64,000 bases of DNA from Microbispora catharanthi (lineage in GTDB: Bacteria > Actinomycetota > Actinomycetes > Streptosporangiales > Streptosporangiaceae): positions 1 through 64,000 of the forward strand of contig NZ_VDMA02000001.1 in NCBI RefSeq assembly GCF_006334915.2. Reading direction: 5' to 3'. Positions 1,570-48,633 of this stretch are shown in pieces. Every line of letters starts with the position of its first letter. Position 1 is the first letter of the stretch. The translations under genes and the position numbers were made by a program. Below the pieces are notes generated by a model. That model was not told the DNA's origin. It searched no databases and saw nothing but the letters and a program-made list of their open reading frames with translations.

Positions 1570-2352
1570 CGCATCGCTTGCGCTTCTTCACATGCCCGTA
1601 CATCCGGTCTTTGCCCAGGTCCAGGGCGGCGAACAGGTGCCGTACGCCTTGGGTGCGGGTGTAGGTGGCGCGCATCCGCGGCCGGGGTTCCCGGTTGGGG
1701 TCCTTGCCCTTGCCGCCGACGTCGGTCCATTGCCTGCCCGGCCGGGGTTGCAGGTTGAGCGGCCCGAACTCGTCCAAGCAGAAGATCACCGTTGGTTCGC
1801 CGGGGTCGGGGACGACCTCGCGGTCGGCGATCGCATACAGGTGCTCGACGCGGGCCTTCTTGGCCGCGTAGTCCGGATCGCGGGAGGCCTTCCAGGTCTT
1901 TATGGCTTGAAAGGACACCCCTTCTGCACGTAGAAGTTCGCGCAGGCCCTCATGGCTGATGTCCTCGACCACCCCTCGGCGACCAGGAAGTCGGCCAGCT
2001 TGGTCAGGCTCCACCGGGAGAACGGAAGCCCGTGCTCGGCAGGCTTGGACTTGGCGATCTTCTTGATCTCGCGGCGTTGCGGCAGCGTGAACGTCGGAGC
2101 GCGGCCGCCCTTGTACTTGGGGTACAGGGAGTCGAACCCGTCGGCGTTGAAGTTGTGGATCACATCCCGGACCCGGTCTTCGCTGGTGAACGCCACCTTG
2201 GCGATCTGACCGGTGCTCATGCCCTGGGCCGACAGGAGCACCATCTGCGCTCGTCGCCAGGTCACCACCGATCCCGTGCCGCGCCGTACGATGCGCAGCA
2301 GCCGGTTCCCTTCATCGTCATCGATCTCGCGTACGCGAACCCGCTCGGCCAC
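1570..2352 (-). pseudogene. IS630-family transposase, frameshifted and 3'-truncated
   Basis: The first frame (2352 down to about 1970) encodes an HTH region with GMSTGQIAKVAFTSEDRVRD and KYKGGRAPTFTLPQRREI. The second frame (about 1970 to 1570) continues with SHEGLRELLRAEGVSFQ and VIFCLDEFGPLNLQPRPG, the first catalytic-Asp region of IS630 transposases. The frames meet at a G run near 1970 (GAGGGGTGG), where one extra G or a -1 slip would restore reading. Homology stops after GHVKKRKR near 1570, so the remaining acidic catalytic residues are lost. Some IS630 elements use programmed -1 frameshifting, so the shift may be native, but the truncation makes this copy inactive. Terminal inverted repeats were not identified. 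Confidence 0.8.
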
Positions 2353-2646
2353 GAGCAGAGTGTGAGGCGATCACGCCGATCGCGGTGGGACCTTGATCGG
2401 CGTGTCGCCACGAAACGGGGCAAACCCAAGCTGATGCGGCACTAGGAAGCACCCCTCCCCACCGGAACTCTCCGGCACGGCTTTGCCGACGGCTTTCCCG
2501 CACCCAGCCATGGGTCGGCTCTTAGACTAAGAAAACGTTATTGGATAAGACGAGCGGAGCGACGGAGGCTTTCACGCTCCGTTCTGTGGGAGCCCGGGGT
2601 GAGATCCCCCCGGGCCACCCGGCGCCGCACCGCTCGCCAGTGCGTG
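2353..2646. other. Intergenic stretch between IS630 remnant and immunity gene
   Basis: No convincing gene is visible. The part next to the IS630 remnant may hold the outer end of the element, but no paired terminal repeat can be assigned. The right part contains a GC-rich hairpin (2592-2615). A small AT-rich patch near 2525-2545 (AGAAAACGTTATTGG) contrasts with the surroundings. Confidence 0.4.
2592..2615 (-). terminator. Possible terminator hairpin after Rhs immunity gene
   Basis: GCCCGGGG (2592-2599), loop TGAGAT, then CCCCCCGGGC to 2615 form a strong hairpin 32 bp beyond the stop of the minus-strand immunity gene. No T tract follows, so this is a stem-only terminator candidate. Confidence 0.4.
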
Positions 2647-2973
2647 TTATTCGAAAACCTCTAGGCGAAGTAGATCTAGACCTTCGATCTTTCGCAGTTG
2701 ATCTTCTATGAAATCCCAGCGACGAGACTCGGCGATTTCTACAAGGAGGGAGTATTCAGGAAACTCCTCCTCGTAGTGTAGGCCCTCTTCGTCCACGAAG
2801 TTGTATTGTACTTGAATAACCTCCTCCGAGCCTATGGGAGTACGCCAGATATCCCCGCCGACATAATCGCCGCCACCCAGAACGAACTCTTGCTGGAGCG
2901 CATCAGCAAGTAGTCGGATCGCGACGTCTGCATCGACGTTCTTCCACCCGTACAGAAGGTTGCGATTTGTCAT
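2647..2973 (-). CDS. Putative Rhs immunity protein (108 aa)
   Basis: A small acidic protein with no signal peptide or membrane segment, containing YVGGDIWRTPIG and many Glu/Asp near the C-terminus. Its ATG overlaps the TGA of the upstream Rhs toxin tip by four bases (ATGA), the tight coupling expected of a toxin and its cytoplasmic antidote. Codon use is much less GC-biased than in the Rhs core, in line with a swapped-in module. No immunity family was recognised. The assignment rests on position, size and composition. A strong stem (2592-2615) follows. Confidence 0.65.
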   Translation of the reverse strand: MTNRNLLYGWKNVDADVAIRLLADALQQEFVLGGGDYVGGDIWRTPIGSEEVIQVQYNFVDEEGLHYEEEFPEYSLLVEIAESRRWDFIEDQLRKIEGLDLLRLEVFE

Positions 2974-4796
2974 CTGACTATCACACTCGGCGATCGAGAA
3001 GCTGCGGCTTCGACGGATTCGTAGATCATAAAATTAACTGGTCGGCCTGCCAGCCGAGAGAGGCTCTGACTGAGATCATACAACCCGAGCCTCCTGAGGT
3101 TACCGTAGCTTAGGTTGATCGTCCTTGTCTTCCCAGATCGTAGGGGTATGCCGGCTGCCCTTGCCTTGGCCAACAGACCAGGGCTGGCCAGAGCTACGTC
3201 GAAGTCGCTTACTCTACCTTCATCGAAGGGAACCCCAGTACGATAGCTCTTTCCCGTCACACTACTACCCTGGAATAGTGGCACGGCGTCATTGTATCCA
3301 GCTTTACCCAGACCTTTCTGTAGCGCATTTCCGAATGCCTCAAATTCTCTTGCGGTATTGAATCCAAGGACAGGCGAACGAACTGCAGCCGTCCTCGCTG
3401 CAAGAATTTCCGGAGCTAGGACCCCTTCCCCGCCCTCAGGGAAGGCGACAAAGGGGGCTAGGAGGCCGAGATTGTACCCCAGTGAACTCTTATCGGCGCC
3501 AGGGCTTGTTATCTCATTGAGATTCCGAACACCGCTTTGGACATTGTTGACACATGCGCCTGCGGTCTGCTGAGACTCCCCCAGGCAGAGGGCCGGCGCG
3601 ATGCCCTCCGCCGGCCCTTTAGCGAAGAACCACAAGGCGTTAGCGCCACCGTCAGCGATGCCCTTGTTGAGCTGGTCGAAGAATCCGAGGACGGGAATCT
3701 TGCTCCGCATGGCCTCAGCGTCATTTGGAGAGCCAGACGATCCGCCGCTATTCGTGGAGGTACAGTCTCTGTTCTGGCATTCGGCCGCCCCCGCTGCGCT
3801 GTTTGAGTACTGCAGCGGCTGATGGCCGTCGAGTTCGATGCCGGTGATGGGGTTGCCGCCGGCGAAGGCGTAGCGGTTAGAGGTCCAGGGGTCGGTGCCG
3901 AGGGTCAGGTCGTTCAGGGCGCCGTTGTAGTAGTCGAGGGTGAGGAAGCGGTTGAGGTTGGGGTTGTAGTCCCGGAACCCCATGTCGTACATGCCGGTGG
4001 AGTTGTCCCAGCGCTTGCCGTTGAAGCGGTAGGGGTTGTACTCCTCCTTGGTGGTGGGGTCGACCGGGTCGGGCTTGTCAACGCCGGTGAACAGCTTGTC
4101 GTCGTTCTTGCCGTAGGACGTGTAGCCGTAGGTGGCCCGGGTGTCACCGGTCTCGGATGTGACCTGCTCGACATCGGTGTGGGCGTTGTAGCCGTAGTAG
4201 GACGACTCCTCACCGCCGGTGGCGGTGAATTTCACCTGCGACAGGCGCTCGCCCCAGGGGGAGTACTGGAAGGAGCGGGTCAGCTTGCCGGCGACCTCCT
4301 CGTCCAGCACTTCGCCGGACATGCCGAGGTAGGAGTAGTCGGTGGTCTTCGCGCCCGCGGTGCCGGTCTTCTCGGTCTTGGACGTGGTGCGGTCGAGCGG
4401 GTCGTAGGTGTAGGTGGTGACGGTCGAGGTGGTGCCGTCGGTGCCGAGCTTTTCGTGCTTGGTCAGGTGGTCGAAGCCGTCGTAGGTGTACTTCTCCCAG
4501 GTCTTGCCGCCGCCGGTGATGGTGCGCAGGCGGCCGTAGGGGTCGTAGTTGTAGGTGGCGGTGGCCCCGTTGGTGGTCGAGGTCATCAGCCGGTTGCGGT
4601 CGAAGGTGAACTCGGTGCGCTCACCGTGGACGGTCTGGTCGTAGACGCTGGAATTCGGGTCGTGCAGGTAGGTCTCGGTCTCCGCCGCGCCCCCGCCGAC
4701 CGGGGTCTTGACCGTCTTCGCGATCCGGTCCCGGGGGTCGTAGGTGTAGGTGAACTGGTTGTCCAGGTACGCGCCGGGGTTGTCGGCGTTCTGCAC
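2970..4796 (-). CDS. Displaced Rhs tip with nucleotidyltransferase-like toxin domain
   Basis: The first ~330 residues are YD repeats (YTYDPRDRIAKT, YNYDPYGRLRTI, YTYDPLDRTTSKT) ending in the core signature NRYAFAGGNPITGIELDGH. The C-terminal ~280 residues are variable. They contain GSSVTG at residue 510 and SDFDVALAS with D531 and D533, the G-S plus D-x-D pattern of nucleotidyltransferase folds, so a nucleotide-transferring toxin is likely. The reading frame is open upstream to 5045 with more YD-repeat sequence but has no ATG, GTG or TTG before GTG 4796, and no signal or N-terminal shell region. It is therefore an orphan tip that can act only if recombined onto a complete Rhs gene. It overlaps the immunity gene by 4 nt. 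Confidence 0.75.
   Translation of the reverse strand: MQNADNPGAYLDNQFTYTYDPRDRIAKTVKTPVGGGAAETETYLHDPNSSVYDQTVHGERTEFTFDRNRLMTSTTNGATATYNYDPYGRLRTITGGGKTWEKYTYDGFDHLTKHEKLGTDGTTSTVTTYTYDPLDRTTSKTEKTGTAGAKTTDYSYLGMSGEVLDEEVAGKLTRSFQYSPWGERLSQVKFTATGGEESSYYGYNAHTDVEQVTSETGDTRATYGYTSYGKNDDKLFTGVDKPDPVDPTTKEEYNPYRFNGKRWDNSTGMYDMGFRDYNPNLNRFLTLDYYNGALNDLTLGTDPWTSNRYAFAGGNPITGIELDGHQPLQYSNSAAGAAECQNRDCTSTNSGGSSGSPNDAEAMRSKIPVLGFFDQLNKGIADGGANALWFFAKGPAEGIAPALCLGESQQTAGACVNNVQSGVRNLNEITSPGADKSSLGYNLGLLAPFVAFPEGGEGVLAPEILAARTAAVRSPVLGFNTAREFEAFGNALQKGLGKAGYNDAVPLFQGSSVTGKSYRTGVPFDEGRVSDFDVALASPGLLAKARAAGIPLRSGKTRTINLSYGNLRRLGLYDLSQSLSRLAGRPVNFMIYESVEAAASRSPSVIVR
3868..4225 (-). repeat. Rhs-core direct repeat, copy B
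   Basis: Near-identical to 1-358 in the same orientation, 3867 bp away, and lying within the Rhs core reading frame. A shorter, diverged third copy is at about 6827-6913 in the opposite orientation. Recombination between A and B would delete the intervening IS630 remnant, regulator fragment, immunity gene and toxin tip. Confidence 0.9.
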
Positions 4797-5045
4797 CTTT
4801 GCTAGGTCGCTGGCGCGGTTGAGGTTGGCCTGGTAGCCGATGGTGTGCTCGGCGACGATCGTCCCGTTGGGCTTCTTCTCGATCGAGTGGCGCAGCAGGC
4901 TGTCGAGGAAGTAGTCGTAGTCGACGGTGTTGCCGTTGGCCTTGGTCTCGGTCTCGGTTCTGGCGGCCGACCTCGCCGCTTGGACGCGGCTGCTCGGATT
5001 GCATGATGCTGAGCCGGCCCGATTCGAGCCGCGGAGGATGCTGTA
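4797..5045 (-). other. Upstream open extension of the displaced Rhs tip
   Basis: In frame with the toxin tip, codons from about 4960 to 4797 encode recognisable Rhs sequence (NGNTVDYDYFLDSLLRHS, EHTIGYQANLNRASDL). Upstream of about 4970 the sequence no longer resembles Rhs, and an in-frame TAA lies at 5048-5046. This marks the 5' truncation point. No conventional start codon lies in the extension. Confidence 0.6.
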
Positions 5046-5186
5046 TTACCCAGGCTCAGCGCCGCACCCTCGGCAACAGTCGCGTGCCCACACTTTTCCG
5101 CGGTCAAGCCTCATATGCCCGAAAACTCCAAAACTCGGCCGGGTGGGAGCCCCAGAGGGGCAAGAGGGCGTCACCGCGTCCGCCTA

Positions 5187-5240
5187 CCGAAAAGAATCCG
5201 ATCTACGGCTGGGTTGCTAACAGTCCAACCGTAGATCGGA
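5187..5240 (-). terminator. Intrinsic terminator after second immunity gene
   Basis: TCCGATCTACGG (5197-5208) pairs with CCGTAGATCGGA (5229-5240), and pairing extends to 16 bp with one wobble position. Read on the minus strand the hairpin is followed by TTCTTTTC (5196 downwards), a real T-rich tail. It lies 46 bp beyond the stop of the immunity gene at 5286. Confidence 0.75.
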
Positions 5241-5285
5241 ATCACTTCTCTTGAAGGGGTTTAGGTGGAGAGGTTTCGAGACGAC

Positions 5286-5600
5286 CTACTTCTGGGCCAT
5301 GCGACGGAGCATGGCGGCCAGATCTTGAAGATGACTTTTGTCAGCCTCTGTATCCCAACCGTGTTCCGCCGCCTCCGGACCAGAAAGTGCTTCTATGGTC
5401 TCGAGTAGCCACTGAGCGATCTCTGGCCGATTTTCCGCGTCGATGAGAGTGAAATCGATTCCGATCTTATCTGCGTGTCGCGCGTATTCCGTTCGCTTCG
5501 CTTGGTCGACGACTCTCATAGCTCGCTCTAGTATTATCGACCAGGTTCGCGAATTGGTGAACCAATCCACGCCGTCGTCGGAAGTCACGATCGCGGACAC
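5286..5600 (-). CDS. Putative Rhs immunity protein (104 aa), partner of second tip
   Basis: A small soluble helical protein with the blocks VDWFTNSRTWSIILERAMR and GPEAAEHGWDTEADKSHLQD. Its GTG start shares one base with the TAG stop of the upstream toxin tip (TAGTG), so the two are translationally coupled. A clear homologue, broken by a frameshift and in reverse orientation, lies at 6044-6290. That shows this family was present at least twice in the locus. The immunity role is inferred from the position directly after a toxin tip, the size and the AT-rich composition. It is followed by an intrinsic terminator. Confidence 0.65.
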   Translation of the reverse strand: MSAIVTSDDGVDWFTNSRTWSIILERAMRVVDQAKRTEYARHADKIGIDFTLIDAENRPEIAQWLLETIEALSGPEAAEHGWDTEADKSHLQDLAAMLRRMAQK

Positions 5601-6043
5601 TAGTAACCACCTCCAAGAATTATGAGCTTGTTAAGTGGTTTCATGGCGGGGTTCGCCGCCCAAGAATCGAGACTTGAGAAGACGGCATCGATCTGCGCGC
5701 TCGAAGCTCCAGTCATATCGAGGACAGTATAGTTGAAACCGCTCTTGGCGTAGATGTGCTTCCAGATCGAGCGGATCATCTTACCCTCGTTGTAGTTGGG
5801 GTTCGTCCACGCAGAGGGTCCGCCGACGGCGTCGTACGTACGACCGCGCGCATCGATGAAGTCTGGGTTGTTGGTGTCCCGGAATCCTCGCAGCTGGCCT
5901 CCAGAATATTCCTTGGAAGCCATCAGCCGAGCAGCGGTACTGGGCTCGTCCCCCTTCAGTTCGGAGATATTGCAGTATTCGCCGCCGGCGTTGTGCACCA
6001 GGATGGGGGCGTTGCCCGCGAACGCATAATACGTGTAGCGCGG
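5600..6043 (-). pseudogene. Displaced toxin tip: end of HINT-type linker plus unknown toxin
   Basis: Reading from about 6040 the minus strand gives YTYYAFAGNAPILVHNAGG, the end of a pretoxin HINT/PT-type processing segment (…LLVHNAGG is the usual toxin boundary). About 125 residues follow with GRTYDAVGGPSAWTN and FNYTVLDMTG. The toxin family is not recognised; the G-x-Y-D-x-(V/I)-G pattern occurs in several nuclease-like tips, which is only a hint. The frame continues to an ATG at 6124, but those ~27 extra codons are the antisense of an inverted immunity gene, so they are not native. Without an Rhs body it is probably silent. TAG is followed by the overlapping GTG of the immunity gene. Confidence 0.65.
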
Positions 6044-6290
6044 GCTATGAGGGCCGTCGATCAAACAAAGCGCGCGGAATGCGAGTGGCGCGCGAATACG
6101 GTCGGGAATTAACTTCACGCTCATCGACCCGGAAGACCGGTCAGAGATCGCTCAGTGGCTACTCGAGACCGTGGAAGCTCTTTCTGGTCCGGAGGCGGCG
6201 GAACATGGCTGGGATACGGAAGCTGACAAAAACTATCTTCAAGATCTCGCCTCCCTTCACGAAATGCTGCTGAGCGTTTTGGCGCCATAG
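6044..6290 (+). pseudogene. Inverted, frameshifted paralogue of the 104-aa immunity gene
   Basis: The plus strand encodes AMRAVDQTKRAECEW, then after a one-base frame change GINFTLIDPEDRSEIAQWLL and GPEAAEHGWDTEADKNYLQD, ending at TAG 6290. This matches the minus-strand immunity protein at 5286-5600 over about 80 residues. The shift is explained by one extra G in GGG at 6104-6106, which creates an in-frame TAA at 6110-6112. The 5' part of the gene is missing and is joined head-on to the HINT fragment at about 6042. It is too broken to give protection. Confidence 0.85.
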
Positions 6291-6336
6291 CCTTCGCGGC
6301 CTCCTGATCGCCAGCAGTTAAGAAGGAGGTGTCGAA

Positions 6337-6717
6337 ATGCGACCCACCATAGTGTTGATAAGCGCTGTGGGCACCCACAAAGAGCTTGTAGACAGATTGC
6401 GCCATGCCGGCACCTACAGCAACGGAGAGTTTTTCGATCGCCTCGAACGGGGAACCTGCTCTTTCGGCATAGATCTCTCAGGAGACGTCGTTGCCGAGTT
6501 CGAGGAGGACGAAATAACTCAGGTCTCTCGAGAGCCTGGAGAATTTGGGGTCATCCTCATCGAATATCCCGGCATGCCATGCCTTCGCCAACTTCTACTG
6601 GAAGTGCTACAGGGATTCGATGGGCTCCTCGATACAAACTACGGAGACCTGATCAGGTACGATCGGGTCCTGGAGCGCTTGCGTCGAGACCCTTCTTGGG
6701 ACTGGGCGTCACAGTAG
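6337..6717 (+). CDS. Orphan putative immunity protein (126 aa)
   Basis: A small acidic cytoplasmic protein preceded by a strong ribosome site (AAGGAGGTG about 6 nt before ATG). It contains TCSFGIDLSGDVVAEFEEDE and LLEVLQGFDGLLDTNYGDLI. No family is recognised. It lies downstream of the broken immunity paralogue, in the same plus orientation, and is closed by a terminator at 6771. No intact toxin of this orientation is present. In polymorphic-toxin loci, kept orphan immunity genes protect against neighbours' toxins, and that is the likely role here (inference). Composition is lower in GC than in flanking genes. Confidence 0.6.
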   Translation: MRPTIVLISAVGTHKELVDRLRHAGTYSNGEFFDRLERGTCSFGIDLSGDVVAEFEEDEITQVSREPGEFGVILIEYPGMPCLRQLLLEVLQGFDGLLDTNYGDLIRYDRVLERLRRDPSWDWASQ

Positions 6718-27462: not shown

Positions 27463-27602
27463 GGCGCGAACCTAGTCCCTCCCACCGCGCCCGGCAAAGA
27501 CCGTCGCGGTGATCCCCGGCCAGCGGCGGCAGCGGGACACAAGACGGTTCCGAGCGGCCGGAGTGTGGTGGTTCTGGGAGCGGTGCAGCCACCCGTCGGC
27601 GA

Positions 27603-29825
27603 CTACGTACGGAGCGGTGCCAGGTCGTCGCCCGCTCCGGAACAGGCACGGACCACGTCCGCCGTGAGCGTCACCCCCGGTACGCCGCACAGCACCTCAT
27701 GAAGGTCCCGCGAGGCCGCCAGCTCCTGGAGCGACTCCGGCAGGTCCCGCACGCCGGAACCTTCTGTGATCCGATCGACGGCCTCGGGATGCGACTCCAG
27801 GTAGTCCGCCAGCTCCGGCCATCGGATGCGAAGAAGCGTCCACAGCGCGAGGGCGTCGGTCGGCACCAGGCTGCCCTCCAGAACGCGCACGGCACGCAGG
27901 ACGGTGTAGGTGTTGACGAACCGTTTCATCGCGCGCGGATTGCTGTGCAGCAACCGGGAGAACTTCGCGAGGGCGTGGTGGGAGACGTCCTGTACGCCGG
28001 CGTCGAGGATCCGTTCGACCGCCTGCGAGGCCACGATCTCGCGGACCCGGGGGTCGGCTTTCGCCAACGTCTCCAGCACCTCGATTTCGTCGTTGCTCGT
28101 GGTGAGCGCCGCACGGACCTGGTCGGCGGTGGCCGGCGGGGGCTTCGCGACGCTCACACCGAGCAGCTGGCCGAAGTACAGGTCCCGGCTGGCCCCGCCG
28201 AGTTTGGGCATGGGGACGCTGAGCTGGAAGAGCTTGTCCAGGAACAGGTAGCCGATCGGACGCCCCGGCTCGGCGACCGCCGATGTGAACGTCTCGTAGG
28301 CGTTCTCGTAGGCGCAGCGCAGCCAGGCGCCGTCCATCGCGACGACGAAGCTCGGGGCGTGGAAGTCCGGAGTGCGGCGTAAGGGCCGACGCCAGTGCTC
28401 GGGCACGTCGCGGACGAGCGTCTGGACGGAATCGAGGAAGTTCACCACGTAGTCGGCGTTGCAGCGGTCGAGGTCCTCCACGAAGACGACGATGGGCCGG
28501 CCGGCGTGCCGCACGAGCCAGGCGATGTGCTCGGCGACGTCGTTCATGGGGTCGGTGTGGGACTGCTCGAAGGTGCGGGCCCTGCGCGCCGACCCCCACA
28601 TCGCGTACCTGCTGACGAGGATCCCGGCCGTCCACAACGCGCCGGCCGCGCCGACGAGGGTGGTCACGGTCTTGAACGTCGGCTCGACGCTGCGGACTGT
28701 GATGACGCCGGCCCTGAACAGGAACGCGGCGAGGAGCGCCGTGCCGACCAGGAGCAGGCCAGAAAGCACCTGAGGGGCGCCGTCGCGACGGACCCGCGCG
28801 AGAAGCTCTCGCACGAGGAAGAAGGGACGTCGCCAACGGGGCCTGTGCTGGACGACCGCCTTGCGGACCGTGGTGAGCAGCGCCCACCAGGGTGGTTCGA
28901 TCCGCACATGCCGCCAGGTGTCGAAGAAGGCCACGATCGAGTCGCTCCGCAGGTCGCGGGCGAGCAGTTTGAGCAGGGTGCTCTTGCCCGTCCCCCACGA
29001 ACCGTCGATGTGCACCAGAAACGACGCGTCCGGGGACTCCGTCCGCGCGTGGCGCAGTTGCCTGGCGAGCACGTTCGCCAGCGCGGCCCGCTTGAGCACA
29101 TCGTGGTCGGCCGGCGCGTCGCTGACCCACTGCGTGCGCTCCCGGCCGCCGGGCGCGAACTCGCCGGGCCTTCGGCGCCGGTCCTCGGGAACCTCGGTGG
29201 CTCGCTCCCGGGCAGAGCGGATGACGGCGTCGAACTCCGGCCACATCGCGGCGAGAGCGGGAGCCGGGCTCATGTATCCGGCTCTGCCGTTCGGCCTGTC
29301 CGTCGCGAAGAGGATGCCGAGCACCGCGCCGAGTTCGGGGCTCCAGACGGGCGCTCCGGAGTAGCCGGCCGTGAACCCCGCGCTGTCGGTGGCCTCCAGT
29401 TGGACGGCGCCGTGCGGCAGGCTTCCCACCGTGCGCCCGGACGCCCAGCGCCCGTCAGAGTAGCCGTGCGGAAAACCGTAGGCGCTGACCTGAAGGCCCG
29501 GCGGCGCGGCGGCGGCGAACTCGACCGGCCGGACGTCCGGCAGCGCCGTTTCCAGCCGGAGGACGGCGAGGTCCCCGGGCCCGAGATCCGAATCGGGCTG
29601 CGCCGGCGCCAGGAAGTGGACACCTGCCCGCGAAGGCCCCGTGCGGAGGAACGGGAAGTCCACGAGCACGGTCTCCGGCTGTTCCCCCCTCCCGCGGGTG
29701 ATCACGTGCGCGCACGTCAGCACGAGATCCGCGGCGACGAGCACGCCCGCGCCCGCGACCGCCCCCGTTTCGTCGGCGATACGGGCGACGGCCTGCTCGA
29801 CTCCGGAAGCCGGGGGAGTGCTCAT
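27603..29825 (-). CDS. Trypsin-like protease fused to KAP-family P-loop NTPase
   Basis: 740 residues from ATG 29825. Residues ~1-200 are a chymotrypsin-fold protease: His40 in VLTCAHVITRG, Asp85 in LGPGDLAVLRLE, Ser156 in FTAGYSGAPVWSP. Residues ~230-740 are a KAP NTPase: Walker A GSWGTGKSTLLKLL (275-288), two membrane helices inside the NTPase domain (QVLSGLLLVGTALLAAFLF, VTTLVGAAGALWTAGILVS), and Walker B IVVFVEDLDRCNADYVVNFL. KAP proteins include the phage-exclusion protein PifA, and intramembrane insertions are characteristic of the family. The gene stands alone. A membrane-tethered, NTP-gated protease acting in cell defence or suicide is a reasonable inference, not shown. Confidence 0.85.
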   Translation of the reverse strand: MSTPPASGVEQAVARIADETGAVAGAGVLVAADLVLTCAHVITRGRGEQPETVLVDFPFLRTGPSRAGVHFLAPAQPDSDLGPGDLAVLRLETALPDVRPVEFAAAAPPGLQVSAYGFPHGYSDGRWASGRTVGSLPHGAVQLEATDSAGFTAGYSGAPVWSPELGAVLGILFATDRPNGRAGYMSPAPALAAMWPEFDAVIRSARERATEVPEDRRRRPGEFAPGGRERTQWVSDAPADHDVLKRAALANVLARQLRHARTESPDASFLVHIDGSWGTGKSTLLKLLARDLRSDSIVAFFDTWRHVRIEPPWWALLTTVRKAVVQHRPRWRRPFFLVRELLARVRRDGAPQVLSGLLLVGTALLAAFLFRAGVITVRSVEPTFKTVTTLVGAAGALWTAGILVSRYAMWGSARRARTFEQSHTDPMNDVAEHIAWLVRHAGRPIVVFVEDLDRCNADYVVNFLDSVQTLVRDVPEHWRRPLRRTPDFHAPSFVVAMDGAWLRCAYENAYETFTSAVAEPGRPIGYLFLDKLFQLSVPMPKLGGASRDLYFGQLLGVSVAKPPPATADQVRAALTTSNDEIEVLETLAKADPRVREIVASQAVERILDAGVQDVSHHALAKFSRLLHSNPRAMKRFVNTYTVLRAVRVLEGSLVPTDALALWTLLRIRWPELADYLESHPEAVDRITEGSGVRDLPESLQELAASRDLHEVLCGVPGVTLTADVVRACSGAGDDLAPLRT

Positions 29826-29888
29826 GGTCACATCGTCCTACGCCCCGACGGGACATGCGGCACGTCTCACCCCCCAGACGTCGACGGA

Positions 29889-29915
29889 GGCACCACCCGC
29901 ATGACGGGTGGTGCC
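29889..29915 (-). terminator. Terminator after secreted glycoside hydrolase gene
   Basis: GGCACCACCCG (29889-29899), loop CATGA, CGGGTGGTGCC (29905-29915): a perfect 11-bp stem 12 bp beyond the stop at 29927. No T tract. Confidence 0.65.
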
Positions 29916-29926
29916 CCCTCTTCCGG

Positions 29927-45113: not shown

Positions 45114-45222
45114 GCCCGCGACCCGAATTAGACGCCTTTCTCGGTATTGATGCCTATAAGTGACCTTGAAACGCATGTACCATCGGGCCACTCGCACGGG
45201 GTCATGGCGACGGGGGTCGCGG

Positions 45223-48200
45223 ATGGACGAGTTGCATGTGCGTGTGCTGAAAACCTCGTCTCTGACAGCCGGGGACGGTTCCGCCGTGCCCGTGCGATCG
45301 GCCAAGGCGAGGGCCGTGCTGTTCTATCTGGCCGTGGAGGGCACACCGCAGACGAGGCCGGCCCTCGCCGGGCTGCTGTGGGGTGATCGCGCGGAGGCGA
45401 ACGCACGCGGAAGCCTCCGGCTCGCCCTGATGGAACTGCGCCGGGCCGCGGGCGGCCACCTGGTCATCGACCGGACCCACGTCGCCTTCGACCGCGACCG
45501 GCCGTACTCGCTGGACTGGGAGGACCTGGTCGGGAACGGTTCGGTGCCCGCGGACTACCGTGGCGGTTTCCTGGACGACCTCGTGGTCGCGGACGCCCCC
45601 GCCTTCGACGACTGGGTCGCCGGACGCCGGCGGCAGGCCGGGCACGTCGCGGCGCAGACGCTCGGCGAGCGGGCACGGGCGGCGCGCGATCGGGGCGACC
45701 GCGACGGCGCCGTACGGCTGGCGCGCCAGGTCCTCGCCATCGACGGGCTGGACGAGAACGCCCACCGGCTGATCATCGAGGTGATGTGGGCCACGGGCAA
45801 CCGCGCGGGCGCCCTGGCGCAGTACGAGGCATGCCGCCGGAATCTGGACCGCGAACTCGGCGTCTCACCCGATCCCCGCACCCAGGCGCTCCGGCAACGG
45901 ATCACACTCGGCGGGCCGGGGGCTCACCCGGTTCGCGGTGCGGGCGTCGCCGTGCCGCCCCGCGAGGTTCCGGCGGGCGGCACGGCTACGCGGCGCCTGC
46001 CCCGTCCGCTGACCCGGTTGATCGGCCGTGATGCCGAGGTCGAGAAGGTCTGCGCGAAGCTGCGGGACCGGGAGGTGCGGTTGCTCACGCTGACCGGCCC
46101 GGGCGGCGTGGGCAAGACGAGACTGGCCATCGCCGTCGCCGAACGACTCGACGGCGAGGTGCTGTTCGTCTCGTTCGCCGGAGTGCGGTCGCACGACACC
46201 GCGGCGGAGACAACCGGCAGCGAGGCGGGCAGGCCAGCGGGCAGCACAGTGGACAGCGAGGTGGACCTGGTCGCGACGACGCTGGCGGAGGCCGCCGGTG
46301 TCGACCTGACGCCCCCGAGGCCCGCCCGCGACCTGCTGCTGGCCGCCGTTCGTCGGCGGAACCTGGTCCTGGTCCTGGACAACCTGGAGCACCTGCCCAC
46401 CGTGGCGCCGCTGGCCGGGGCGATCCTCTCGGCCGCGCCCGCCGTACGGATCCTGGCGACCTCGCGGCGCAGGATGGGGATCTGCGCCGAGCACGTCCAC
46501 GAGGTGCCCGCGCTGTGCGGCGCATCGGCGCGAGCGCTGTTGCTGGAACGCGCCAAGGCCCTGGTGCCGGACATCTCCCCGGACACGCACGCCCTTGACC
46601 GCGTGTGCCGGGCGGTCGGCGGGCTGCCCCTCGCCGTCGAGCTGGCTGCGACGCTGACCCGGGCGATGACCTGCGAGGAGATCGCGGAGCATCTGAACCC
46701 GGCCGGTCGCGCCTCCCGCGCCGCGCATGCTCCGGCGGACCTCCTGGTGCATCCGCAACCGGCGGCGGCCACCAGGCACGCGAGCATGAAGCAGGTCTTC
46801 GACACCTCCTGGCGGCTCCTCACCGCCGTCGAGCAGCGGGTGCTGGCCGCCGTCTCGGTGTTCGCCGGCGGCTTCACGCTCGCCGCCGGGATCGAGGTCG
46901 CGGACACCACCGCCGTGGTCGTCGCGAGGCTGACGGACCACTCCCTGGTGCGCCGCGACCATGACGGCCGGTATCGCGTCCACGAGCTCGTACGGCAGTA
47001 CGCCGTCGCGCGCCTCGCCGACGAGTCGCCCCGGGCTCGCCATGCCGCCTGGTACGCCCGCTTTCTCCGAGACCGGGCGGCCAGGCTTCGCGATCACGCG
47101 GACACGTCCGTGCTCCACGAGATCGAGCCGGAGATCGACGACATCCGGCAGGCCTGGCGGCATGCGCTCCACCGGCTCGCCGATGACGATCGGGCGGCCT
47201 TCGCCGAGAGTTACTGGACGCTGTGCCTGCGCAGGCACTGCTACGCCGAGGCCCTGTCCGTGGCCTCCGACATGATCGCGACCGTACGGCCGGGACATCG
47301 GGCGGCGTCGGCGCGGTGGCACCGGCTGGCGGGGACGGCGCACTTCCAGTTCGAGCGCGGCGCGGAGAGCCTGACGGCCTTCAGGAGAGCGCTGGCGGTC
47401 GCCGACCGGCCGCTGCCGTCGTCCTGGGCAGGAAAGGCGAGCGCGGTGGCCGGAGGGCTGGCACGCCAGGCGATCCGCCACACCACTCCACTCAGCGGAC
47501 GTGCCAGGAAGGGACCGGCCCGCGAACTCGCCGCCGAGGCCGCGCACACCCTGTCCGTCCTCGGCGAACTCGCCTATCACCGGCAGGAGCAGGACACATT
47601 GCTGCTCAGCGTGGTGCGTCACCTCGACGCGGCGGAGCGGGCGGGCGGCTCGGTCGAACGCGCCGAGGCGTACGCGAACTTCGCCGTCGTGGCCGCCCTC
47701 GCCGGTTCCGAGGCGATGGCCCGGCACTACGGCCGCCTCGCCGACGAGGAGATCGCCAAGGTGCCGGACCCGGTGGCGGTCTCCCGCGCCCGTCTCGCGC
47801 GCGGACTGCGGCTCATCGCGGAAGGGCGGTTCGCCACCGCGCAGCGGGTCCTCACCCTGGCCCGCCGGCATCCCGCCGATCCCCGTCTCGCGGAGCACTG
47901 TCTCGGGCTCCTCGCCGACCTGGAAATCCATCGAGGGCGCTATGCGGCCGCCGCGCCGATGATGGCGGCGGTGGCCGAAGCGTCGGTCGCGCGGATGGGC
48001 GAGACGCTGTCCGGTTATTGGGGCCTGACCGGGCAGGCGGAGGCGCTGCTGCGGCTCGCCGATCGTGAGCCCGCCGACGTGGGCGTGGTCCTGAAGGCCG
48101 CCGAGGAGGCGACGATGGCGTTGCCCGCGCTGGGCGAGGACCATTTCGCCCGGGCCGGCGCGAAGATCCCGGCGATTCAGCGGCTGCGGCTCGGCGTCGC

Positions 48201-48633
48201 ACAGGCCCGGTTCCACCTGCTGGGCGATGACGCGCCCACCGCCCGCCTGGCGCTGGACGACGCGCTGCGCACGGCGGACCGGCCGGACATGCCGCTCAGG
48301 GGCACCCTCGAGGCGTGGGCGGGGCTGGCCGAGGTGTTCTGGGCCCTGGAGGCGGACGACCCGGCGGTCCGGAGAGCACTGCGCCACATGTCCCGGCTGG
48401 CTCGCCGCACCCCGTCGGCGGCGGCCCGCATGGGCTGGGCGGCGGCGCTGTCGCACCAGGTGACCGGTCAGCGGCTGAGGGCCCGGCGGGTCGCCGTACG
48501 GGCGCTGGCCACCGCTCGGCGTCTGGGCATCGCCTTCGACGAGGCCAGGTCGCTCGAAGTCCTGGGCGAGACGGAGGAGGCCGCCCGGATTCACGCCTGC
48601 CTGGGCACCGCGCCGCTCACCCGGCCCCGCTGA
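45223..48633 (+). CDS. Large BTAD/AfsR-type regulator with NTPase and TPR domains
   Basis: 1136 residues from ATG 45223. The N-terminal ~240 residues have an OmpR-like HTH and BTAD domain (AKARAVLFYLAVEGTPQTRP, ANARGSLRLALMELRRAAGG, QYEACRRNLDRELGVSPDPR). Then an NB-ARC-like NTPase: Walker A LTLTGPGGVGKTRLAIAVAE, Walker B NLVLVLDNLEHLPTVAPLAG, sensor ATSRRRMGI and GLPLAVELAATL. The last ~500 residues are TPR-like helices. This is the layout of AfsR/SARP-LAL signal-integrating regulators that use ATP and ligand binding on the TPRs to control transcription. Its 3' end overlaps the Crp gene by 43 bp, tail to tail. No biosynthetic cluster is adjacent. Confidence 0.85.
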   Translation: MDELHVRVLKTSSLTAGDGSAVPVRSAKARAVLFYLAVEGTPQTRPALAGLLWGDRAEANARGSLRLALMELRRAAGGHLVIDRTHVAFDRDRPYSLDWEDLVGNGSVPADYRGGFLDDLVVADAPAFDDWVAGRRRQAGHVAAQTLGERARAARDRGDRDGAVRLARQVLAIDGLDENAHRLIIEVMWATGNRAGALAQYEACRRNLDRELGVSPDPRTQALRQRITLGGPGAHPVRGAGVAVPPREVPAGGTATRRLPRPLTRLIGRDAEVEKVCAKLRDREVRLLTLTGPGGVGKTRLAIAVAERLDGEVLFVSFAGVRSHDTAAETTGSEAGRPAGSTVDSEVDLVATTLAEAAGVDLTPPRPARDLLLAAVRRRNLVLVLDNLEHLPTVAPLAGAILSAAPAVRILATSRRRMGICAEHVHEVPALCGASARALLLERAKALVPDISPDTHALDRVCRAVGGLPLAVELAATLTRAMTCEEIAEHLNPAGRASRAAHAPADLLVHPQPAAATRHASMKQVFDTSWRLLTAVEQRVLAAVSVFAGGFTLAAGIEVADTTAVVVARLTDHSLVRRDHDGRYRVHELVRQYAVARLADESPRARHAAWYARFLRDRAARLRDHADTSVLHEIEPEIDDIRQAWRHALHRLADDDRAAFAESYWTLCLRRHCYAEALSVASDMIATVRPGHRAASARWHRLAGTAHFQFERGAESLTAFRRALAVADRPLPSSWAGKASAVAGGLARQAIRHTTPLSGRARKGPARELAAEAAHTLSVLGELAYHRQEQDTLLLSVVRHLDAAERAGGSVERAEAYANFAVVAALAGSEAMARHYGRLADEEIAKVPDPVAVSRARLARGLRLIAEGRFATAQRVLTLARRHPADPRLAEHCLGLLADLEIHRGRYAAAAPMMAAVAEASVARMGETLSGYWGLTGQAEALLRLADREPADVGVVLKAAEEATMALPALGEDHFARAGAKIPAIQRLRLGVAQARFHLLGDDAPTARLALDDALRTADRPDMPLRGTLEAWAGLAEVFWALEADDPAVRRALRHMSRLARRTPSAAARMGWAAALSHQVTGQRLRARRVAVRALATARRLGIAFDEARSLEVLGETEEAARIHACLGTAPLTRPR

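Follow-up and report, generated by a model that had tools for sequence, protein, structure and literature searches.

Several systems that defend bacteria against phages contain KAP NTPases. What, then, is the role of a gene that stands alone and joins such an NTPase to a trypsin-like protease? The question is raised by a locus in Microbispora, a soil actinomycete, found in a stretch of 64,000 nucleotides of M. catharanthi which we analysed as a whole and call the window. A preliminary description had proposed the gene as a candidate for an undescribed single-gene device of abortive infection. Judged from sequence, the gene is real, intact and accessory; it stands by itself and belongs to a KAP family of modular build, and a function in biological conflict is likely. 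The constant KAP core with its varied N-terminus offers a natural domain-exchange experiment on whether the core is sensor, switch or killer.

A trypsin-like protease joined to a KAP NTPase

The trypsin-KAP gene (27603..29825, reverse strand, as are all its features below) encodes 740 amino acids and a stop. Its ATG lies at 29825, an alternative GTG start is possible 6 bp upstream, and a promoter and terminator scan gave nothing above chance. The fusion of the two domains in one protein, as first described, is confirmed by matches above the Pfam cut-offs for both. The Trypsin_2 domain spans residues 25-171 (29313..29753; E 1.7e-13, above the curated cut-off). The complete catalytic triad claimed for it is borne out, as His40 (29706..29708), Asp85 (29571..29573) and Ser156 in the motif GYSGAP (29358..29360) are each the same residue in all four full-length trypsin-KAP proteins, and because of this identity the assignment of Ser156 is correct. 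With a His-Asp-Ser triad in a trypsin-like domain, the protein qualifies as an S1-type peptidase of predicted activity. Inspection by eye found no evident signal peptide at the N-terminus, so that the protease domain probably lies in the cytoplasm. In a PDB search the protease half matched 8w20 (E 1.5e-4) and SplB (E 0.0075) weakly, and the KAP half found no significant relative (best E 0.12, a cytochrome b5).

A variable linker (residues 198-228; 29142..29234) precedes the conserved ERTQWVSDAPAD motif, with which the KAP core starts. The KAP_NTPase domain, whose relatives bear other N-termini, covers residues 249-645 (27891..29081; Pfam E 2.3e-20, 73.5 bits against a cut-off of 20). Walker A, GSWGTGKS (residues 275-282; 28980..29003), and the Walker B region, IVVFVEDLDRC (residues 445-455; 28461..28493), were recognized by pattern, and between them sit two hydrophobic segments defined by hydropathy only (residues 357-375, 28701..28757, and 386-404, 28614..28670), in agreement with the earlier account of two membrane segments. 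Taken together, the Pfam score, the Walker motifs and the predicted membrane insertion place the protein in the KAP NTPase family. Hydropathy scoring found at least two segments between the Walker motifs in 44 of 48 KAP cores; of the other four, two (L006, L087) do not have the strict Walker A pattern and two (L004, L104) show one segment. Residue 450 (28476-28478), just before DLDRC, is Glu in the trypsin-KAP clade and Asp in 44/44 other cores listed, so that this clade has its own change in the NTPase site. The closest relatives are found in Microbispora siamensis (89% identity), M. rosea (87%) and Nonomuraea ceibae (66%), measured over the best segment, and since these orthologues share both domains at 66-89% identity, the fusion architecture is beyond chance.

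The protease part is the fastest-evolving part of the protein. For residues 1-197, dN/dS against three orthologues was 0.77, 0.51 and 0.62, compared with 0.16-0.34 for the KAP parts up to residue 645 and 0.26-0.50 for the C-terminal tail (Nei-Gojobori estimates, given without a significance test). Neighbouring genes gave 0.16-0.48 in 13 of 14 comparisons, the misaligned row of the histidine kinase against M. rosea (19% identity) being left out, and the flanking GT4 gene is raised too (0.38-0.48). The raised values of the protease, together with its invariant triad, would fit an arms race, or else relaxed constraint outside the active site.

Matches to the protease domain in other Microbispora lie at six places, with 31-34% identity and in N-terminal position on larger proteins. 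Four such proteins were scanned: VMAP-M8 and VMAP-C are present on two, nSTAND1 with WD40 on a third, and the fourth has WD40 among the matches listed. L154, L155 and L152 are trypsin-VMAP-M8-VMAP-C and trypsin-like-nSTAND1-WD40 proteins of other Microbispora genomes. PADLOC matched the N-terminus of the trypsin-KAP protein weakly to Avs1b, RT-Protease_XI and LmuA; a Trypsin_2 scan of its own genome (12 matches, 9 over the cut-off) was uninformative.

KAP cores and their N-termini

A profile of the KAP core (alignment A2) was searched at E <= 1e-30. It matched 9 of 345 genomes in the window's order and 40 of 390 in Pseudonocardiaceae, the family of the Kutzneria genome G698. The class sample held two carriers in 394 genomes, both Microbispora, and the phylum sample one in 396, the window's own. 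Copy numbers in these large searches are lower bounds, because three to four candidates were scored per genome. For the 40 Pseudonocardiaceae carriers, a partial match in G851 and partial second places in G773 (C71) and G817 (C21) were left out of fetching.

Across the family the KAP core is located at or near the C-terminus and the N-terminus varies. Of 54 N-termini from the fetched loci, 51 were labelled by single-linkage blastp groups and Pfam, and the fragments of L075, L082 and L083 were left unlabelled; the Pfam scans covered mainly the members named here, and other group members were labelled chiefly by their blastp grouping. Nine classes stand above Pfam cut-offs: Trypsin_2 (the window protein and L004), the caspase-like Peptidase_C14 (L072, L115, L097, L098), NB-ARC (L005, L103), WD40 (L006, L017, L085, L088), SAD_SRA (L084, E 8e-48), VMAP-M0 (L102), DUF4062 (L105), BTAD (L118, whose core is split over two frames) and AAA_22 (L108). 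The N-termini of L073, L074, L096, L101, L104 and L114 had no Pfam match. Some candidate assignments were set aside: a TIR start in L006 scored 20.3 bits, below the cut-off of 28; the SRA-like N-termini of L007 and L096 are weak (hhalign probability 26%, E 7e-4, and no Pfam match either); and a cyclase-like look of L102 and L114 was seen by eye only, L114 having no Pfam match. By motif pattern, two of eight caspase-like N-termini have lost catalytic residues.

Two pairs of cores, L101/L102 (73.4% identity) and L104/L105 (72.5%), carry N-termini without meaningful similarity. A tree of 44 cores (IQ-TREE, with bootstrap) requires at least 13 changes for 12 N-terminal groups, and a quick tree of 48 cores gives 14 changes for 13 groups. 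The larger tree excluded L075, L082 and L083 and the split cores L100, L118 and L119, and the smaller one further excluded the long branches L121, L074, L076 and L081. The trypsin group forms a single clade on the 44-core tree (100/100). By these comparisons the N-termini of the family are exchanged, without drift as an explanation. Cores that are 73% identical under different N-termini also make chimeras practical.

In L075, L100, L118 and L119 the core is divided between two frames, which points to gene turnover or to an error of sequencing. Five matches to the KAP core at E <= 1e-10 (L006, L080, L081, L082, L083) come from Actinokineospora auranticolor (G699); three of the five reach E <= 1e-30, and the N-termini of the five differ or are truncated.

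Distribution and gene neighbourhood

Full-length copies of the trypsin-KAP gene are present in 3 of 15 Microbispora genomes, and in four additional genomes of the 15 the match is essentially confined to the protease domain. Searched with the full-length protein, the window's family gave 5 of 297 genomes at E <= 1e-30, one of them via the KAP part only. The gene is flanked by a GT4 gene and, upstream, by a gene for a CBM35 protein, which is syntenic in two other Microbispora carriers. In Microbispora G009 these two flanking genes adjoin each other with the KAP gene missing between them: homology stops at 27519 and resumes at 29923, and 63 bp replace the 2403 bp of 27520..29922. The P450, kinase and sugar-uptake genes keep an identical order in that genome and the window. 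In three further genomes (G002, G004, G012) the P450 and CBM35 genes neighbour each other, and neither GT4 nor KAP gene was found between them. As read from these alignments, the locus differs by the presence or absence of one gene, which is accessory. No clear boundary repeat was seen at the indel, the window holds no tRNA, and no mobile gene was identified among the scanned neighbours of the window copy. The repeats close to the gene look no different from chance, and cargo of a transposon, integron or prophage is not supported. A search of 50,697 phage records gave no match; viral contigs hold distant loci only (18-23% identity), and plasmids distant KAP proteins only, with matches annotated as qatA at about 23% identity.

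Neighbourhoods were sampled at 29 of 52 KAP loci, with up to two genes on each side. This gave 112 scanned proteins, after a 2,298-aa neighbour of L116 was dropped from the 113 listed; some of their frames may be wrong because the genes were called by a GC3 rule. PADLOC found no family with more than two matches in the per-family counts for 25 of the 35 matched families listed, and the control of 40 other window genes matched two Csa3 models only, with one member each. The preliminary description had named enrichment of homologues in defence islands as its first check; clear enrichment was not seen in this sample, and several neighbours are housekeeping genes, including SelB, deformylase, MsrA, an M28 peptidase and an amidohydrolase. 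Clustering of 400 neighbour proteins from 52 loci found no conserved partner gene across architectures. It gave 12 groups with at least three loci: six occur in the WD40 clade alone, whose related genomes are syntenic; two (11 and 7 loci) mix classes by joining unlike proteins or doubtful reading frames; and four have three loci each.

Several single observations were made in these surroundings, and some of the neighbours resemble defence genes. A GmrSD-type restriction gene (11697-13505 of L007) lies directly 3' of the KAP member whose N-terminus is weakly SRA-like. AAA_22 proteins with sub-threshold matches to BrxC/D are found beside L080 and L117, where the AAA-type KAP member stands in operon order behind two more genes of the same strand; this arrangement resembles the neighbourhoods of Orc/CDC6-like ATPases with a KAP NTPase described in the available part of PMC10853773. 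Within the window, 2970-4796 (reverse strand) encodes an RHS-repeat protein in surroundings (1900-6700) of lower third-position GC, possibly acquired, and 45160-48633 (forward strand) a large regulator of SARP-like type that contains BTAD and a region resembling AAA/NB-ARC.

Possible function and comparison with known systems

Our reading, held tentatively and with close to an even chance of being right, is that the protein belongs, as the trypsin-bearing member, to a modular family of KAP proteins which filamentous actinomycetes encode in single genes and anchor in the membrane, and that it acts by infection-triggered proteolysis. Its domains, conserved motifs, N-terminal exchange and accessory single-gene status are read directly from the DNA. 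A hairpin of two helices would hold the KAP core on the inner membrane and leave both ends cytoplasmic. On some sign of infection or of another invasion the core would bind or hydrolyse NTP and oligomerise; the cytoplasmic trypsin-like domains might thereby be brought together and switched on, and would then cut one or more host proteins, so that the infected cell is arrested or killed. In this scheme the cue, the cytoplasmic side, the assembly into oligomers, the substrate and the result for the cell are what we infer. Since an MBL nuclease partner is not among the checked trypsin-KAP neighbours, they offer no obvious substrate.

The company that the domains keep, the patchy occurrence and the quick evolution of the protease lead us to read the gene as a conflict switch, encoded by one gene and anchored in the membrane, of which the trypsin version probably works by proteolysis. 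The conflict role claimed earlier stands as likely but indirect: it comes through a KAP core common to caspase, NB-ARC, SAD/SRA, VMAP-M0 and WD40 proteins, through a patchy gene standing alone, and through the nearest protease domains in the genus, which lie on VMAP-C and nSTAND1-WD40 proteins. Several of the N-terminal modules, such as VMAP-M0 in L102, belong to predicted conflict systems, which would support our reading of infection-triggered proteolysis; the unclear enrichment in defence islands, the raised dN/dS of GT4 and the two degenerate caspase-like N-termini speak against it. The mechanism first put forward is one of two leading options.

One may ask whether the protease is the weapon at all. 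The output shared by the family could be the KAP core, perhaps as an oligomer that disrupts membranes or acts on DNA, with every N-terminal module as an input; in the trypsin member the protease would be an input or self-release switch, cutting its own protein or an inhibitor and freeing the KAP part. The core is the sole part common to all members, and the SAD/SRA (L084), WD40, NB-ARC and BTAD domains are recognition or switch modules; the sensor-like look of the first three would make the core the common output. Some caspase-like N-termini are degenerate, and Tmn, a KAP defence protein with two transmembrane segments, is presented in the available part of PMC11846954 without mention of a fused enzyme. 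We consider this explanation, the other leading option, less likely than our own reading, as trypsin, caspase and TIR-like modules are N-terminal, the effector position in VMAP, nSTAND, Avs1 and HamA proteins, and the trypsin triad is kept in 4/4.

The protein may also have no part in immunity. It would then serve the life cycle or the stress response of the actinomycete as a regulatory protease or a signalling protein bound to the membrane, with N-termini swapped in the manner of other large regulators of actinobacteria. This is improbable: the gene occurs in just three of 15 Microbispora genomes, its absence is a clean indel, and SAD/SRA and VMAP-M0 modules would be unusual in a regulator of development, even if SelB, deformylase, MsrA, amidohydrolase and sugar-uptake genes are among the neighbours, no mobile gene was identified among those scanned beside the window copy, and SARP-type transcription regulators, for example that at 45160-48633, have BTAD and NB-ARC as well. 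Far less probable still is a decaying or inert accessory gene, to which the split cores (4 of 54 loci) and the raised dN/dS of the protease domain might point, whereas the window copy is intact, its triad invariant and its KAP dN/dS 0.22-0.26 in six pairs.

Coming back to infection-triggered proteolysis, the known systems can be compared. In PADLOC the KAP core matched QatA (E 2.3e-17, the closest model), PDC-S20 and PifA. The model of PifA, a KAP protein of phage exclusion, matched residues 242-464 (E 1.9e-10), partially and distantly, and was matched by 40 of the 44 members of A3. PifA is not known to carry a protease. QatA, the KAP ATPase of qatABCD anti-phage defence, has an additional domain at its C-terminus, and its gene accompanies those for QatB, QatC and QatD, according to the available part of PMC13279940, whereas the trypsin-KAP protein has an N-terminal protease. 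Membership in qatABCD was rejected, with no qat model matched among 40 window genes scanned by PADLOC and GT4 and CBM35 genes, not qatB, qatC or qatD, as neighbours. Tmn resembles the trypsin-KAP protein in its KAP NTPase with two transmembrane segments and differs in that no fused protease is mentioned in that part of PMC11846954; no Tmn model was among the PADLOC matches of the trypsin-KAP protein, in a library that may or may not contain one.

The Avs1, HamA and LmuA fusions likewise carry a trypsin-like domain N-terminal to a defence enzyme, and here a KAP NTPase replaces the fusion partners named in the portion of PMC12799240 at hand. HamA is the strongest analogy in print for the proposed mechanism: as the same portion reports, dimerisation alone activates its fused trypsin domain, it is toxic when artificially dimerised, and it activates a partner MBL pro-nuclease. 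QatA is suggested to be a heptamer or octamer and binds DNA (PMC13279940, in part). From these two proteins it is plausible that an N-terminal protease would oligomerise under NTP control. A trypsin-MBL pair of protease and nuclease was rejected, with a CBM35 protein upstream instead of an MBL-fold pro-nuclease and no MBL nuclease gene among the checked neighbours (window, Microbispora carriers and five Nonomuraea neighbours).

The closest protease domains found within the genus are those of conflict proteins of the VMAP ternary and nSTAND1-WD40 types, in which trypsin is N-terminal (parts of PMC7159879 and PMC8195603), and VMAP-M0 is common to VMAP systems and L102; in the trypsin-KAP protein, by comparison, the NTPase is KAP, membrane-anchored and C-terminal. 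Excerpts of PMC8195603 describe a KAP ATPase that may displace the STAND NTPase in EAD-linked conflict systems, and those of PMC10907252 hypermutated sensor targets with KAP NTPases, some targets having N-terminal peptidase or TIR domains; in the available text of PMC7159879, KAP is absent as a whole word. The literature searched gave no description of a trypsin-KAP fusion or of such an exchange of N-termini, and an earlier mention (the 2004 KAP paper, Gao 2020) is possible. The word "undescribed" needs qualifying, because defence systems with KAP NTPases have been described before and such NTPases are noted to take the place of STAND NTPases in predicted conflict systems (PMC8195603, as far as available). 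A previously undescribed single-gene immune class of filamentous actinomycetes, with KAP as a universal membrane platform for at least nine unrelated sensor or effector modules, each working alone and with no partner genes, is possible, although we lean towards doubt. If it exists, the KAP platform would be a membrane-bound counterpart of the STAND/NLR design; and if our reading is right, the STAND-like conflict proteins known from multicellular bacteria would gain a design that needs a single gene and is bound to the membrane.
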